From Acidobacteriota bacterium (GTDB taxonomy: Bacteria; Acidobacteriota; Terriglobia; Acidiferrales; UBA7541), in the NCBI GenBank assembly GCA_021818865.1, contig JAKASX010000034.1, forward strand, positions 1 to 33,891: DNA of 33,891 nt. Direction: 5' to 3'. The notes under the pieces were generated by a model. It was not told the DNA's origin. It was given only the letters and a program-made list of their open reading frames with translations, and searched no databases. A program made the position numbers and the translations under genes. Below are positions 25,274-31,022 of this stretch, piece after piece. The number at the start of each line of letters is the position of its first letter. Position 1 is the stretch's first letter.

Positions 25274-26662
25274 TCAGGTCAGCTCCACCGTTTCCCGGTA
25301 TTCGGCGATCTTCACCGGCCAGTGGAACGCTTCCCCGAGCGTTTTTTCGAGCGCTTCCGATCCGGCTTCTTCGCCGTGTACCAGAAACATCTGTTTTGGC
25401 GGCGCTTCGAAATTCTTCAGCCAACGCTCGAGTTCGTTGCGGTCGGCGTGCGCGGAAAATTGCGGCAGATCCACCACCTCGGCGCGAGCGCTAACCTCCT
25501 CGCCGTGCAGCCGCAGACGCCGCGCGCCGTTGAGCAGCGCCCGGCCCGGCGTCCCCTCCGCCTGGTAGCCCACCAGCAGCACCAGATTGCGCGGCTCGGG
25601 CAACCGGCGAATCAGGTGGTGCACTACGCGCCCGCCGGTGGCCATGCCGCTGGCGGAAAGAATCACGCAGGGCGTTTTGACGGCGTTGATCGCTTTCGAT
25701 TGCTCCACGGTGCGCGTCATCCGCACCTCGTGGCAATTCAGCGGGTCGCCCTTTTGCTCTTCCTTGACGAAAATCAGGTCGTGATCTTCGCGGTGTTTCT
25801 CGTAAAGATCGGTCACGCTGATCGCCATCGGGCTATCGAGGAACGTCGGCAAGCGCGGAATCCGGTTCTGATCTTCGAGTTGCCGCAGGACGTAGAGCAG
25901 AGTCTGCGTGCGGCCCACGGCGAACGCCGGCACCACGATCACCCCGCCACGCCCGGCGGCGCGATTCACCGCATCGGCCAGTTGGTCGTAGCGTGAATCG
26001 GTGGGATGCTCGCGGTCGCCATAGGTGGATTCGCACACCAGGTAATCGGCGCGGCGCACCGGCGCCGGATCCTTCAGGATCGGCTGGCTGTAGCGTCCTA
26101 AATCGCCGGAGAAAACCACCACCGTCTTTTTCCCGTTTTCGTTGATGGTCAATTCGACGATCGAGGACCCCAGAATGTGCCCCGCGTCGTAGAGGCAAAC
26201 GGAAAATTCCTCACTGATCTGGTGCGGACCCGAGCGCGGAATCATTTGGAAGCGCGCGAGCGCCCTTTCGGTTTCTTCCACGGTGTAAAGCGGCAGCGGC
26301 GGCTTGTGCCGGCTGTAGCCTTTCTTCTCCGCGTACAGCGCGTCTTCTTCCTGCAGGTGGGCGGAATCGCGCAGCAGGAGCTGGCACAGCTCGAATGTCG
26401 CTTCATTCGCCAGCACCGGGCCTCGGAATCCGTCGTTCAAGAGACGCGGCAAATAGCCGGTGTGGTCGATGTGCGCGTGAGTGAGAACCACCCAGCTGAT
26501 GCTCGAGGGTTCCACCGGGAAGGGCTCCCAGTTGTGCTCGCGCAATTCGCGCTCGCCCTGGTACAGTCCGCAATCCACCAGCAGCCGCTTCCCATTTGCT
26601 TCGACCAAGTGTTTCGAACCGGTCACGCAACCGGCGGCACCAAGAAACGTCAGTTTGGCCAT
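25274..26662 (-). CDS. Beta-CASP metallo-beta-lactamase RNase-like protein
   Basis: A 462-residue cytoplasmic protein of the CPSF/Ysh1-type metallo-beta-lactamase family, which cut RNA with two zinc ions. Motif 2 is H62-AHIDH67; motif 3 is DAGHILGS; motif 4 is SGDLGR. The beta-CASP domain includes ESTYGDREH and VVPAFAVGRTQTLLY, then SASGMATGGRVVHHL and the C-terminal FSAHAD and VHGE motifs carrying the last metal ligands. The length fits the bacterial short form without KH domains. ATG 26662 has GAGG four bases upstream. A TAGAAT box (26673-26678, minus strand) and an 8-bp inverted repeat lie directly upstream. It appears monocistronic. RNA substrate unknown. Confidence 0.93.
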   Translation of the reverse strand: MAKLTFLGAAGCVTGSKHLVEANGKRLLVDCGLYQGERELREHNWEPFPVEPSSISWVVLTHAHIDHTGYLPRLLNDGFRGPVLANEATFELCQLLLRDSAHLQEEDALYAEKKGYSRHKPPLPLYTVEETERALARFQMIPRSGPHQISEEFSVCLYDAGHILGSSIVELTINENGKKTVVVFSGDLGRYSQPILKDPAPVRRADYLVCESTYGDREHPTDSRYDQLADAVNRAAGRGGVIVVPAFAVGRTQTLLYVLRQLEDQNRIPRLPTFLDSPMAISVTDLYEKHREDHDLIFVKEEQKGDPLNCHEVRMTRTVEQSKAINAVKTPCVILSASGMATGGRVVHHLIRRLPEPRNLVLLVGYQAEGTPGRALLNGARRLRLHGEEVSARAEVVDLPQFSAHADRNELERWLKNFEAPPKQMFLVHGEEAGSEALEKTLGEAFHWPVKIAEYRETVELT

Positions 26663-26672
26663 GGCGCCTCGT

Positions 26673-26699
26673 ATTCTAGCAGTTTAGGGAAAAACTGCT
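26673..26699 (-). promoter_or_regulatory. -10 box with adjoining inverted repeat before the MBL gene
   Basis: On the minus strand TAGAAT (26673-26678, 5/6) sits 10 bp before the start codon. AGCAGTTT (26678-26685) and AAACTGCT (26692-26699) form an 8-bp perfect inverted repeat that fills the -10/-35 spacer. This is the position of an operator, although a weak hairpin cannot be excluded. No convincing -35 is seen. Confidence 0.4.
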
Positions 26700-26916
26700 C
26701 TCCGTGGCGCGTCAAAACAAGAAGAAAAGCTGCGCACGCCGGGCCTCGGCCTGGAGCCGTGCAGAAAATCCTACTCTTCCAGGCGAACCTCCGCGATAAT
26801 GCGGCCTGCCGCGCATTCGCCGCCGAGCAGAGGGATTGCGAAATGTGGCGTCGATGGATTGGCGCCTGCTTCTCGGGATCGCCCGGCGGCCGCCAGTGCG
26901 AAAGGATGGAAAGGCC

Positions 26917-27330
26917 ATGAACGAACGCAAGCTCGTGCGGCCCAAGGACGCCGCGCAAATCCTCGGCATCAGCTATTCCACGCTCAAGCAGTGGCTTTAT
27001 CGCGGGAAATTGAAAAGCGTGAAAACCGCCGGCGGCCATCACCGCATCCCCGAGGCGGAACTGGATCGATACCTGCATCGCGCCGGACCGAAAAAAGAGC
27101 CCGTCGAGCGGCGGCGGGCGTTTCGCCGGGTGAGCGGGCGCAATCAGCTCGTGGGGCGCGTGGTGGACGTGAAAACGAGCGGCCTCATGGCACAAGTCAC
27201 GCTTTCGATCGGCGGCCAGCACATCACCTCGATCATCACCGCCGACGCGGTGCGGGAAATGGGCCTGCGAAAGGGCGACGTTGTGGCCGCGCTAATCAAG
27301 GCCACCGAAGTGATGATCATGCGCGTCTGA
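26917..27330 (+). CDS. One-component molybdate-responsive regulator (HTH plus Mop/TOBE domain)
   Basis: A 137-residue protein: an excisionase/MerR-type winged helix at 7-53 (PKDAAQILGISYSTLKQWLY and TAGGHHRIPEAELDRYL), a basic linker (59-71), and a single Mop (TOBE) domain at 73-136. The Mop part starts SGRNQLVGRVVDVKTSG and ends ALIKATEVMIM, the classic molbindin pattern that binds molybdate or tungstate at subunit interfaces. It is not ModE, whose DNA-binding domain is different. The gene is followed after 138 bp by the mod operon on the same strand, with a palindrome in the gap. Repression of mod genes by the metal-bound form is the likely role, by inference. ATG 26917 has AAAGG close upstream; longer in-frame starts back to 26836 seem less likely. 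Confidence 0.88.
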   Translation: MNERKLVRPKDAAQILGISYSTLKQWLYRGKLKSVKTAGGHHRIPEAELDRYLHRAGPKKEPVERRRAFRRVSGRNQLVGRVVDVKTSGLMAQVTLSIGGQHITSIITADAVREMGLRKGDVVAALIKATEVMIMRV

Positions 27331-27373
27331 CGGAGCCGCCGACCCCGGCGCCGGCGGGCATTTCACCTAAATT

Positions 27374-27395
27374 CATATCAAATCGTATTGACATG
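27374..27395. promoter_or_regulatory. Near-palindromic operator over a TTGACA box, mod operon
   Basis: A 22-bp near-palindrome, CATaTCAAatCGtaTTGAcATG, with 8 of 11 pairs matching (mismatches in lower case). A perfect -35 hexamer TTGACA occupies 27388-27393. The -10 is unclear: CAATAT at 18 bp or TATACG at 21 bp spacing. The site lies in an A/T-rich patch between the HTH-Mop regulator and the first mod-operon gene, so it is the best candidate for that regulator's target. Confidence 0.55.
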
Positions 27396-27421
27396 ACGAA
27401 TTTATCCGTAACAATATACGC

Positions 27422-27472
27422 ATGTCTTGGGGGCGACACCCGAAAATGGATTCCCTGTGCGCTTGCGTATGA
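27422..27472 (+). other. 16-codon leader open frame coupled to the barrel gene
   Basis: A short frame, MSWGRHPKMDSLCACV, starts at ATG 27422 and stops at TGA 27470-27472, overlapping the next gene's ATG as ATGA. It has no Shine-Dalgarno. Because the barrel gene also lacks one, ribosomes ending here could reinitiate. This may be chance. Confidence 0.25.
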
Positions 27473-28320
27473 AGACCGCGACGGCCTTGTTCGTTCTGCT
27501 GCTCGCCGCGCTGCCGACCTGCGCAAGCGCCGCGTCGAAGTCCAATCGGCACGCCGCGGAGAAACATCGGCACGGCTGGTGGGCGCGCGTGCGCCACGTG
27601 CGCGCAACCCAGCCCGGCTGGATCACTCCGCTCGTCACCGTCACCCCGCTGCTCGAACAGGAATTCCGTTTCGATGAAGTGCGCCAGGTTTCTCCGAGTG
27701 ACGCCGTAACTTACGATTCCTTCGACGGCAAGGGGCTCGAGCTGATCCCGACCGAGCATATCGAGCTGATCGCTGGCGTTCCGGCTTACTTCCACCGGGG
27801 GCCGGGCGCGGCGACGCCCAGCGGTTGGGGCGATTTCCCGACTCTGGTGAAATACCGCATCCTGAGCTCGCCCGAGCGCGAAGGGAATTTCGTGCTCACC
27901 GGTTTCCTCGGGGCGACGTTTCCCGTCGCAACGAACGATAATGGCGCCGGCCGCGTGGTGTTGAACCCAGCGATCGGATTCGGCAAGGGCTGGGGCGATT
28001 TCGACGTGCAAGGCACGTTTGGCGCGTCGCTTCGGGCGGGTAGCTGGCAGCGCACGGGCTCGCCGCTTGCCTTGAACGTTGCTTTCCAATATCACGTTCT
28101 GGAAAAATTCTGGCCGGAAATGGAAGTGAATTCCACGGCCTGGCCGAATGGCGCGAATGCGGACAAAAAGGAAACATTTTTGACGCCGGGAATCGTAATC
28201 GGCCGGTTTCCGTGCTGGGGACGCGTGGGTTTGGTCGTGGGAGCGGGAATGCAGATCGCCGTTACGCACTTTCACCGCTCGAATCACAATCTGATCATGA
28301 CGGTTCGCTTTCCCTTTTGA
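27469..28320 (+). CDS. Probable outer-membrane beta-barrel protein of the molybdate operon
   Basis: A 283-residue exported protein. The signal peptide (MKTATALFVLLLAALPTCASA) is followed by a His/Lys/Arg-rich stretch and then alternating strands typical of small porin-like barrels: PLVTVTPLLEQEFRFDEV, HIELIAGVPAYFHR, NFVLTGFLGATFPV, RVVLNPAIGFGKGW and LALNVAFQYHVL. It ends MTVRFPF, with the C-terminal Phe that outer-membrane proteins need for BamA assembly. It resembles the transporter-type barrels grouped with phenol-degradation MetA proteins. Placement between the Mop regulator and modABC suggests oxyanion passage across the outer membrane, which is inference. The gene starts at ATG 27469; GTG 27457 is possible. 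It lacks a clear ribosome site. Confidence 0.78.
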   Translation: MKTATALFVLLLAALPTCASAASKSNRHAAEKHRHGWWARVRHVRATQPGWITPLVTVTPLLEQEFRFDEVRQVSPSDAVTYDSFDGKGLELIPTEHIELIAGVPAYFHRGPGAATPSGWGDFPTLVKYRILSSPEREGNFVLTGFLGATFPVATNDNGAGRVVLNPAIGFGKGWGDFDVQGTFGASLRAGSWQRTGSPLALNVAFQYHVLEKFWPEMEVNSTAWPNGANADKKETFLTPGIVIGRFPCWGRVGLVVGAGMQIAVTHFHRSNHNLIMTVRFPF

Positions 28321-28351
28321 ACCGGCGGCCGTTTCGCAGGAGGAAGCGCGA

Positions 28352-29185
28352 ATGAAGGCGAGGCGCGGTACGCGAAAACTTTTCCGGAAAATTCTGCACG
28401 CGCGGTTCGGTGCGGTCGGCGCGGCGTTGGCGCTAGCGGTCGCGCTCGCGGTCCCGTCTCCGGCGCGCGCTTCGGGCCAACTCACCATTGCCGCAGCGGC
28501 CGATCTCGATAGCGCGCTGCACGCGCTGATCGCCAGATTCGAGCGGCAAACGGGCGCCGAGGTGCGGCTGGTGCTGGGATCCTCGGGAAACCTGACGGTG
28601 CAGATCGAGCATGGCGCGCCTTACGACCTGTTTTTTTCGGCCGACGTCGCGCATGCGGTCAAGCTCGAGCGGGAAAATCTGATCGTGCCCGGCTCGCTCG
28701 TTCGCTACGCGGTGGGCCGCCTGGTGGTTTACGTTCCCCGCGATTCCTCGCTCGATTTCGCAGAGCGAGGCCTCGCCGCGCTCGCCGACCCTTCGGTGCG
28801 GAAAATCGCGATTGCGAATCCGCGCTTTGCGCCCTATGGCCAGGCGGCGGTTGCGGCGCTGCGCCACGCGAATCTTTATGCGGAACTCGAGCCGCGGTTG
28901 GTTCTGGGCGAGGACGTTTCGCAGACCACCGAGTTCGTGGTTTCCGGCAACGCGCAGGCCGCTCTCACCGCGCTTTCGCTGATGTTCGCTCCGGCGACGC
29001 GCGCCGCCGGGCGCTACTGGCTGGTTCCGCAAAGCGACTACCCGCCGATCGAGCAAGCGGTCGCGATCGTCGGCCGGTCGCGCGAAAAGACCCTCGCGCG
29101 CAAGTTCCTCGATTTCATCGAAACGAAAGAAGGCCGCGCGATTTTCCGGCAGTACGGCTTCGCCACACCGGAGAAACGGCCGTGA
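28352..29185 (+). CDS. modA: Molybdate ABC transporter substrate-binding protein
   Basis: A 277-residue periplasmic binding protein that captures molybdate (or tungstate) for ModBC. The signal peptide runs to about residue 40 (PARA-S). The mature fold shows LTIAAAADLDSAL, with the oxyanion-contacting segment, GSSGNLTVQIEHGAPYDLFF, and the hinge and second-lobe motifs IAIANPRFAPYGQAAVAAL and DVSQTTEFVVSGNAQAALTAL. The end, LDFIETKEGRAIFRQYGF, is typical of ModA. ATG 28352 has AGGAGG seven bases upstream. The stop overlaps the modB start by four bases (GTGA), so translation is coupled. Confidence 0.96.
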   Translation: MKARRGTRKLFRKILHARFGAVGAALALAVALAVPSPARASGQLTIAAAADLDSALHALIARFERQTGAEVRLVLGSSGNLTVQIEHGAPYDLFFSADVAHAVKLERENLIVPGSLVRYAVGRLVVYVPRDSSLDFAERGLAALADPSVRKIAIANPRFAPYGQAAVAALRHANLYAELEPRLVLGEDVSQTTEFVVSGNAQAALTALSLMFAPATRAAGRYWLVPQSDYPPIEQAVAIVGRSREKTLARKFLDFIETKEGRAIFRQYGFATPEKRP

Positions 29186-29856
29186 ATTGGCAGGCGCTCG
29201 AGCTGACGCTTCGGCTATCGTGCGTGACGGCCGCGATCCTGATCGTGTTGGCGCTGCCGACCGCCTATTGGGTGGCGTATTCGCGCCGCCCGTGGAAATT
29301 CCTGGTGCAGGCGCTCGCTTCACTGCCGCTCGTGATGCCGCCGACGGTGCTGGGATTTTACGTGCTGGTGGCGTTCGGGTCGTCGAGCCCGCTCGGGCGG
29401 CTGTGGCAGCGGTGGACGGGCCACACGCTGGCGTTCACGTTTGCGGGACTCGTGGTCGGGTCGGTACTCTACAGCTTTCCGTTCGCCGTGCAGCCGCTGG
29501 TGAATTCGTTTCTGGCGATCGATCCGAAGCTGATTGACGCGTCGCGCGTGCTGGGCGCTTCGCGGCTCTCCACCTTTTTTCGCGTGATCCTGCCGCTTTC
29601 CGCGTCAGGCCTGGCGACGGCCATCGCGCTGACCTTCGCGCACACGTTCGGGGAATTCGGCGTGGTGCTGATGGTCGGCGGCGATATTCCCGGCGTCACA
29701 CGAACCATTTCGATCGACGTTTTCGACCAAGTGCAGGCCGGCAACTACGCCGCCGCGAACGTCACTTCGCTGGTCCTGCTTGCGGTATCCTTCCTGGTTC
29801 TGGCGGCCATCTACGCGTGGAACCGCCGCGCGTGGCCGCGCGCGCCATGGGCGTAA
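29182..29856 (+). CDS. modB: Molybdate ABC transporter permease
   Basis: A 224-residue inner-membrane permease with about five to six helices, forming the channel of ModB2C2. The EAA coupling loop, which docks on ModC, is in DASRVLGASRLSTFFRVILP. LPLVMPPTVLGFYVL and THTFGEFG-like FAHTFGEFGVVLMVGGDIPG are characteristic of ModB. It starts with GTG inside the modA stop (GTGA), and its TAA lies within the modC start region, so all three subunits are translationally coupled. Length is normal for the family. Confidence 0.96.
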   Translation: MNWQALELTLRLSCVTAAILIVLALPTAYWVAYSRRPWKFLVQALASLPLVMPPTVLGFYVLVAFGSSSPLGRLWQRWTGHTLAFTFAGLVVGSVLYSFPFAVQPLVNSFLAIDPKLIDASRVLGASRLSTFFRVILPLSASGLATAIALTFAHTFGEFGVVLMVGGDIPGVTRTISIDVFDQVQAGNYAAANVTSLVLLAVSFLVLAAIYAWNRRAWPRAPWA

Positions 29857-31022
29857 GGGAGGGCCGCACACTGTCTCCTGCGGGCGACGAGCGCGAAGGC
29901 ACGGCAAACGAAATTCTGCTCGACGTGGCGATCCAAAAACGCTACGCCGATTCGACGGGTTCCGGCTTCACACTCGACATCCGTTTTGCCGTTCCCGCCG
30001 GCTTCACCATCCTGTTCGGGCGCTCCGGCGCGGGAAAGACGACGACGCTGGAGGCGATCGCGGGGCTCGTCGCGCCGGATGCCGGCCGGATTCGGCTCGC
30101 CAGACGCGTGGTTTTCGATTCCGCCTCGCGCGTGAACGTGGACGTATCGCGCCGCGGCGTAGGCTACGTATTTCAGAATTCGGCGCTGTTTCCGCATCTG
30201 ACGGTCGAGCGCAACGTGCGCTACGGCTTGCGCGGAGTGCCGGAAATCGAGCGCAGACAACGCGTCGGCGAAATTCTCGACTCCTTTCGCATCGTCTCGC
30301 TCGCCGGCCGCCTGCCGCGCACGATTTCCGGCGGGGAACGCCAGCGCGTGGCGCTGGCTCGCGCGCTGGTCACGCGCCCGGACGTACTGCTGCTCGACGA
30401 ACCGCTCGCCGCGCTCGACGCCGCCACCAAAGGCCGCATCGTGGACGATCTGCGCGCGTGGAATCGGGCACGGCGGATTCCCATCCTCTACGTGACGCAC
30501 AGCCGTGAAGAGGTTTTCGCACTCGGCGAACGCGTTTTCGCGATCGAGCGCGGCAGCATCGCCGCCGAAGGCTTGCCGCAGGACGTCCTCGAAACGCCGC
30601 GTGAGGAAACCGTCGCCCAGCTCGCCGGTTTTGAGAATATTTTCGACGCCCGCATCGCCGCGCTTCACGAAGAGGCGGGAACGATGACGTGCCTGCTCGC
30701 ACCTGGGGCGATCGAAATTGAAACGCCGCTCGTGCGCGTCGAGCCGGGCGCACCGGTGCGCGTGGGCATTCGCGCAGGGGACATTCTGCTGGCAACCGAG
30801 CGGCCGCGAGGCCTCAGCGCGCGAAATGTGCTCGAAGGAACGATCGAAGCGATTGAAGAGAGGGATTTTCGGGTGCTGGCGCGGGTGAATTGCGGCGCCA
30901 CGTTCGCCGTCCTGCTCACGCCCGCCGCGCGACGCTCGCTCGGCCTCGCCGCAGGACGCCGCGTTTGGCTCATCGTCAAAACGCATTCCTGCCATCTGCT
31001 GCGCCCCGCCGCGGAGGATTGA
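29847..31022 (+). CDS. modC: Molybdate ABC transporter ATP-binding protein
   Basis: A 391-residue ATPase that drives the transporter. The first 25 residues are a poorly conserved lead. Walker A is G58-RSGAGKTT, the signature is S161-GGERQRVAL, Walker B ends in D184-E185, and the switch histidine is H218. The C-terminal third (about 290-390) is a regulatory oligonucleotide-binding (TOBE/Mop-like) region, which in ModC can bind molybdate and cause trans-inhibition. ATG 29847 overlaps modB by 10 bp; a start at 29817 is possible. It is the last gene of the mod operon, convergent with the Cu+ ATPase gene. Confidence 0.95.
   Translation: MGVREGRTLSPAGDEREGTANEILLDVAIQKRYADSTGSGFTLDIRFAVPAGFTILFGRSGAGKTTTLEAIAGLVAPDAGRIRLARRVVFDSASRVNVDVSRRGVGYVFQNSALFPHLTVERNVRYGLRGVPEIERRQRVGEILDSFRIVSLAGRLPRTISGGERQRVALARALVTRPDVLLLDEPLAALDAATKGRIVDDLRAWNRARRIPILYVTHSREEVFALGERVFAIERGSIAAEGLPQDVLETPREETVAQLAGFENIFDARIAALHEEAGTMTCLLAPGAIEIETPLVRVEPGAPVRVGIRAGDILLATERPRGLSARNVLEGTIEAIEERDFRVLARVNCGATFAVLLTPAARRSLGLAAGRRVWLIVKTHSCHLLRPAAED

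Follow-up and report, generated by a model that had tools for sequence, protein, structure and literature searches.

The stretch of DNA analysed here (the window, 33,891 nt) contains the gene of a small regulator with a helix-turn-helix (HTH) and a Mop domain. It is followed by a gap (27331–27456) that holds the site discussed below, then by the gene of a predicted secreted or outer-membrane protein, and then by modA, modB and modC. The genes are:

26917 to 27330, + strand: HTH-Mop regulator, 137 amino acids, with the HTH at about residues 8–55, a flexible linker and one Mop/TOBE domain at about 71–135
27457 to 28320, + strand: predicted secreted/outer-membrane protein, an open reading frame without a Pfam family and the first gene past the putative operator
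28352 to 29185, + strand: modA, molybdate-binding protein (TIGR01256, 1.2e-55, above cut-off)
29182 to 29856, + strand: modB, permease (TIGR02141, 1.4e-65, above cut-off)
29817 to 31022, + strand: modC, ATPase with a C-terminal TOBE domain (TIGR02142, 1.3e-87, above cut-off)

The original prediction placed the site in the gap between the regulator and the mod operon. It does lie in the gap after the regulator, but the next gene is not modA, so the description is valid only if the intervening gene is counted in the operon. Its position and its conservation in congeners suggest that it is part of the operon. Comparison with congeners sets its start codon at GTG 27457, and homologues of its product, for which a Pfam search gave no match, follow the same site at five other loci (L004, L005, L197, L018 and L050). 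An Rfam search of 26600–28700 found neither a Moco riboswitch nor any other RNA.

The regulator was said to use an excisionase-type HTH instead of the ModE fold, and the domain searches bear this out. It matches HTH_17 (1.9e-13) and TOBE (6.2e-15) in Pfam, and Mop (TIGR00638, 2.8e-19, above cut-off) and excise (TIGR01764, 5.3e-12) in NCBIfam. A winged-helix domain of the ModE type is absent: the NCBIfam ModE model covers only the Mop part, residues 71–135, with 23.6 bits against a cut-off of 369. By sequence, the only solved relatives found for the HTH are BldC structures (PDB 6ama and 6amk; E 3e-5), while the Mop half matches MopII, ModG and tungbindin. The predicted structure has two confident folded domains joined by a low-confidence linker (residues 56–73), and a fold search with it ranks Mop proteins and the Mop domains of ModE first, followed by BldC (TM by target 0.74–0.82). 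Across 24 relatives the Mop-domain residues S73-G74-R75-N76 (SGRN), T108, K128 and T130 do not vary; they probably include oxyanion ligands, judging by alignment with solved Mop proteins and by general knowledge of Mop sites. A TOBE search of the whole genome yields just two proteins, this regulator and ModC, and so no second TOBE regulator and none of the ModE type. The regulator was matched in 101 of 151 related genomes, although in a few of them the match was to the Mop half alone, and in 51 of 297 genomes sampled across the phylum.

Motif discovery, run on 71 non-redundant loci and unseeded by the window, gave AaTCGTATaaAaTCGTATAgAtT, present in about 72% of the loci. The motif is itself periodic, since its matrix correlates with itself at 0.83 for a lag of 10 and at no more than 0.34 for other lags. 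Copies on the same strand 10 bp apart number 22 pairs, compared with 0.8 in shuffled sequence (z 27), and spacings of 13 and 23 (z 6 and 7) and of 33 are also enriched. Within the genus, the only parts of the gaps that align are those around AATCGTATTGACnTAACGATT and a −10, whereas in many other genera the regulator stands directly before modABC and the same motif is found upstream of the regulator instead. Strong sites occur even outside the class, at L239 and L242 (scores 30.4 and 28.5; shuffled maximum 7.5). A search for a wide (48-bp) motif was dropped when it locked onto the coding sequence of modA.

Applied to the window, these results resolve the conserved element into a tandem direct repeat, TTCATATCAA followed at once by ATCGTATTGA, and two weaker copies 13 bp on. 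The repeat consensus is AATCGTATnA with a period of 10 bp, and the features of the gap are:

27372 to 27381, + strand: putative operator repeat 1, TTCATATCAA, a copy of the 10-bp direct-repeat motif and part of the top match of the leave-genus-out matrix (in the window) and of profile R1 (in its own genome)
27382 to 27391, + strand: putative operator repeat 2, ATCGTATTGA, overlapping the −35, on the same basis of motif, matrix and R1
27388 to 27393, + strand: −35 hexamer TTGACA, read from the sequence; TTGAC is present in 5 of 5 same-genus promoters
27395 to 27404, + strand: putative operator repeat 3, GACGAATTTA, weaker, +23 from repeat 1, placed by the enriched spacings of 13 and 23 and by the anchored alignment
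27405 to 27414, + strand: putative operator repeat 4, TCCGTAACAA, weaker, +33 from repeat 1, placed by the enriched spacing of 33 and by the anchored consensus
27410 to 27416, + strand: probable −10, AACAAT (spacing 16) or ACAATA (spacing 17), weaker than in the congeners

The array consists of two pairs, each with its copies 10 bp apart, and the second pair starts 13 bp on from the second copy of the first. The four copies, starting at 27372, 27382, 27395 and 27405, surround the −35 in a layout common to the relatives. Repeats 3 and 4 of the window are weak, with 4 of 6 core matches each; the congeners have AACGATT, AACGAAT or AGCGAAT at repeat 3.

The relation to the promoter recurs across sites. 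With spacers of 16–18 bp allowed, a promoter-like pair of hexamers is found in 28 of 48 sites and in 13% of shuffles. Where a promoter can be recognised, the candidate operator overlaps it mostly at one of two fixed registers, +16 and −7 from the best pair of repeats. These differ by exactly 23 bp, the same offset as that of one pair of repeats from the other, and a single layout therefore fits both registers. Aligned on the −35, the sites read AatCG.At.aAa.CGtaTTGACtTatCGttTt.AatCgtaTAaAtTcgta, with repeats before, on and after the hexamer.

The site is also specific. A matrix built from other genera only, the one comparison in which the window's genus was left out, scores it at 26.2, compared with 7.7 for the best match elsewhere in the window on either strand. 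The sequence-only profile R1, which like our first matrix includes the window's own site, places it ahead of every other match in the 3.97-Mb genome (E 0.006, against 1.1 for the runner-up). The pattern TCGTATNNNATCGTAT, allowed 2 mismatches, has 28 matches in the genome, whereas its reversed form has 7; it was rejected as too unspecific to define a regulon on its own. From the comparison of sequences, the flagged stretch is very likely a true control site for the molybdate-uptake genes of this soil acidobacterium. We put at roughly three in four the probability that 27372–27414 is the operator of the adjoining HTH-Mop regulator, a direct-repeat array controlling the promoter of the outer-membrane-protein gene and modABC.

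We infer DNA binding, the response to a ligand (molybdate or tungstate) and the sign of regulation as follows. Given the 10-bp period and the homologous HTH, the binding mode of BldC and the phage excisionases is the best guess: each repeat would take one HTH domain, and neighbouring protomers would bind cooperatively, head to tail. In Mop and ModG, the Mop domains assemble into multimers and hold oxyanions where subunits meet, so that ligand binding could help the array to form. Molybdate or tungstate held between Mop domains would then promote the multimer and fill the array when oxyanion is sufficient. Once filled, the array would cover the promoter from ahead of the −35 as far as the −10, shutting off uptake. 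With the core promoter covered in this way, the most likely outcome is repression at plentiful oxyanion: by analogy with these systems, the oxyanion-bound regulator would multimerise along the repeats and so block the promoter. A fuller version of this scheme, which we hold only tentatively, is a ligand-gated filament of the excisionase/BldC type, in which oxyanion between Mop domains assembles a head-to-tail array on repeats one helical turn apart over the promoter. It would form a steep, multi-subunit molybdate switch, in contrast to the ModE dimer bound to a palindrome, and would serve across Acidobacteriota for a regulon that includes TonB-dependent receptors.

The sign could in principle be the opposite, with the regulator acting as an activator that turns on uptake at low oxyanion, for instance by acting on the promoter in the manner of MerR. 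The HTH has a distant likeness to MerR, and TaoR, whose HTH is reportedly excisionase-like, is said to act as both activator and repressor. We nevertheless consider activation unlikely, since the repeats extend over both promoter hexamers and the spacer between them, and since the commonest spacer within the scanned range is 17 bp, whereas MerR targets usually have 19–20 bp.

A different transcription factor could instead read the array, with the HTH-Mop protein a mere neighbour, but the presence of the site follows that of the regulator. Profile matches were found in 44 of 74 regulator-bearing family genomes and in 0 of 13 without the regulator (Fisher p 4e-5), counts that are not fully independent because some training sites come from the same genomes. 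If two genomes with a Mop-like match only (G012 and G024) are counted as lacking the regulator, the latter figure becomes 2 of 15 (p 0.001). Over 89 family genomes, the best profile match lies on the same strand and within 300 bp of the regulator gene in 33 of the 46 genomes with a match, where about 0.01 would be expected. The motif abuts the HTH-Mop regulator across Acidobacteriota, in many genera of differing gene order, and its period suits the type of HTH domain. In one congener (G004) the mod operon lies on a different contig from the regulator, and the four-repeat site stays before the outer-membrane-protein/mod operon. The four assessable mod operons in regulator-less genomes (L201, L203–L205) have no site. 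What speaks for a different factor is that several regulator-bearing genomes (e.g. L007, L011, L015, L199 and L200) have no detectable site near the regulator or mod, which we read as variation in the targets. Overall, we regard a separate factor as quite improbable and keep the HTH-Mop protein as the candidate that binds the array. In several genera (L007, L010, L011, L015, L017 and L036) the regulator is present with neither mod genes nor the repeat motif nearby.

The anatomy first proposed for the site was a 22-bp near-palindrome, 27374–27395, which reads CATATCAAATCGTATTGACATG and would serve a symmetric regulator dimer. The perfect TTGACA that it was said to overlap is there, at 27388–27393, and 8 of 11 positions do pair with the reverse complement; palindromes are, moreover, the targets of most dimeric bacterial repressors. 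However, a palindrome of equal quality arises in 13–18% of dinucleotide shuffles of the gap, and 101 22-mers within the window pair as well, so the palindrome by itself is no evidence. Conservation in relatives had been named as the test that could refute it, and in this register the four congeners have just 6, 5, 2 and 4 of 11 positions paired, a loss for which we rejected a palindromic site. Over 48 sites, from the window and its relatives, the mean in this register is 4.75 of 11, whereas the 10-bp direct repeat is kept at the same place. Pairs of the motif on opposite strands show scattered small excesses only, without a peak comparable to the direct one at 10 bp. A palindromic operator is therefore very improbable; the part of the prediction that stands is a regulatory site tied by comparative evidence to the HTH-Mop regulator and to oxyanion transport genes. 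It is scarcely credible that the conserved AT-rich block is a mere constitutive sigma-70 promoter, for although TTGACA and a −10-like hexamer are present, this would leave unexplained both the ATCGTAT repeats at 0, 10, 23 and 33 outside the hexamers and the repeat arrays that stand in other promoter registers.

A direct-repeat operator read by the HTH-Mop regulator would resemble several known systems in part. The closest described group is the TaoR family (Rajeev et al. 2019, Environ Microbiol 21:784, as cited in PMC11980592), whose members regulate tungstoenzymes and Mo/W transport and carry an HTH-17 domain. Shared with it are the HTH_17-type domain, the linkage to Mo/W transport genes (here modABC, TonB receptors and an oxyanion-type ABC operon near the regulator or the site) and, presumably, the response to oxyanions. 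TaoR-like proteins are described in that paper as HTH, PBP-like and TOBE, whereas by Pfam and NCBIfam the regulator here, in Acidobacteriota, has the HTH and one Mop domain only. BldC of Streptomyces, with its homologous HTH, lines up head to tail on 9-bp direct repeats and distorts the DNA (PMC5859096). It differs in having no sensor domain and in a 9-bp period with the consensus AATTNNNNC, as opposed to 10 bp, AATCGTATnA and a Mop domain. Cooperative binding to direct repeats one helical turn apart is likewise seen in phage excisionases and RDFs (lambda Xis, Apl of 186), among which Apl represses promoters by occupying arrays of this kind (PMC7498355). Unlike the regulator they are recombination proteins without a ligand sensor, and the window locus offers no integrase context.

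ModE of E. coli shares the molybdate-binding Mop fold in a regulator of modABC, but has another N-terminal DNA-binding fold, two TOBE domains and an inverted-repeat target (PMC545781), as against one TOBE and direct repeats here. The site was predicted not to look like the E. coli ModE box, and indeed has no resemblance to the inverted E. coli-type consensus printed in PMC545781, though the unit ATCGTAT loosely resembles the ModE half-site ATCGNTAT. The more general claim of a distinct molybdate-responsive switch is only partly borne out: regulators of Mo/W genes with a reportedly excisionase-like HTH have already been described (TaoR), and this one differs from them in pairing the HTH with a single Mop domain. 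We found no description of an AATCGTATnA direct-repeat operator in the literature searched, and as far as that literature goes the operator appears to be new. It would give a widespread acidobacterial molybdate regulator, itself undescribed in the papers searched, a precise target in the form of 10-bp direct repeats over the promoter, and would link the binding mode of BldC and the phage excisionases to a sensor of metal oxyanions.

The genes that follow the site include modABC and that of the window's outer-membrane protein. Also found after it are genes of TonB-dependent receptors that have carboxypeptidase-regulatory and plug domains, a porin-like gene that precedes modA, and an ABC operon of oxyanion type whose binding protein is SBP_bac_11. 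In the congener at L003 a large TonB-dependent receptor with a carboxypeptidase-regulatory domain replaces the gene of the 27457–28320 type, and in several other genera (L062, L071, L090, L091, L208, L210 and L212) a TonB-dependent receptor follows the site. Molybdate or tungstate may cross the outer membrane through these receptors and the unclassified protein, which are candidate parts of such uptake in soil bacteria. Weaker profile matches lie before unrelated or no clear genes (L209, L211 and L213–L216) and may be due to chance.

Three further observations concern individual loci. At L198 (G011:C338, 3555–4041) a second, diverged protein, with 38% identity to the regulator over residues 23–118, precedes modABC; sites of the same motif lie near it on both strands, and the genome has a normal regulator elsewhere. 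At L172 (G026:C76) the match to the mod permease contains one in-frame TAG and the adjoining match to the regulator comprises the Mop half only (76% identity), so that this locus may be decaying or badly assembled. Finally, in a loose core search, the −10 region of the window (27401–27418) matches the ModE-like core TATAT-N8-ATATA with one mismatch, one of 2 such matches in the window where 0.44 are expected by chance, and the congeners read GTATTAATAAATAC or similar at this stretch.
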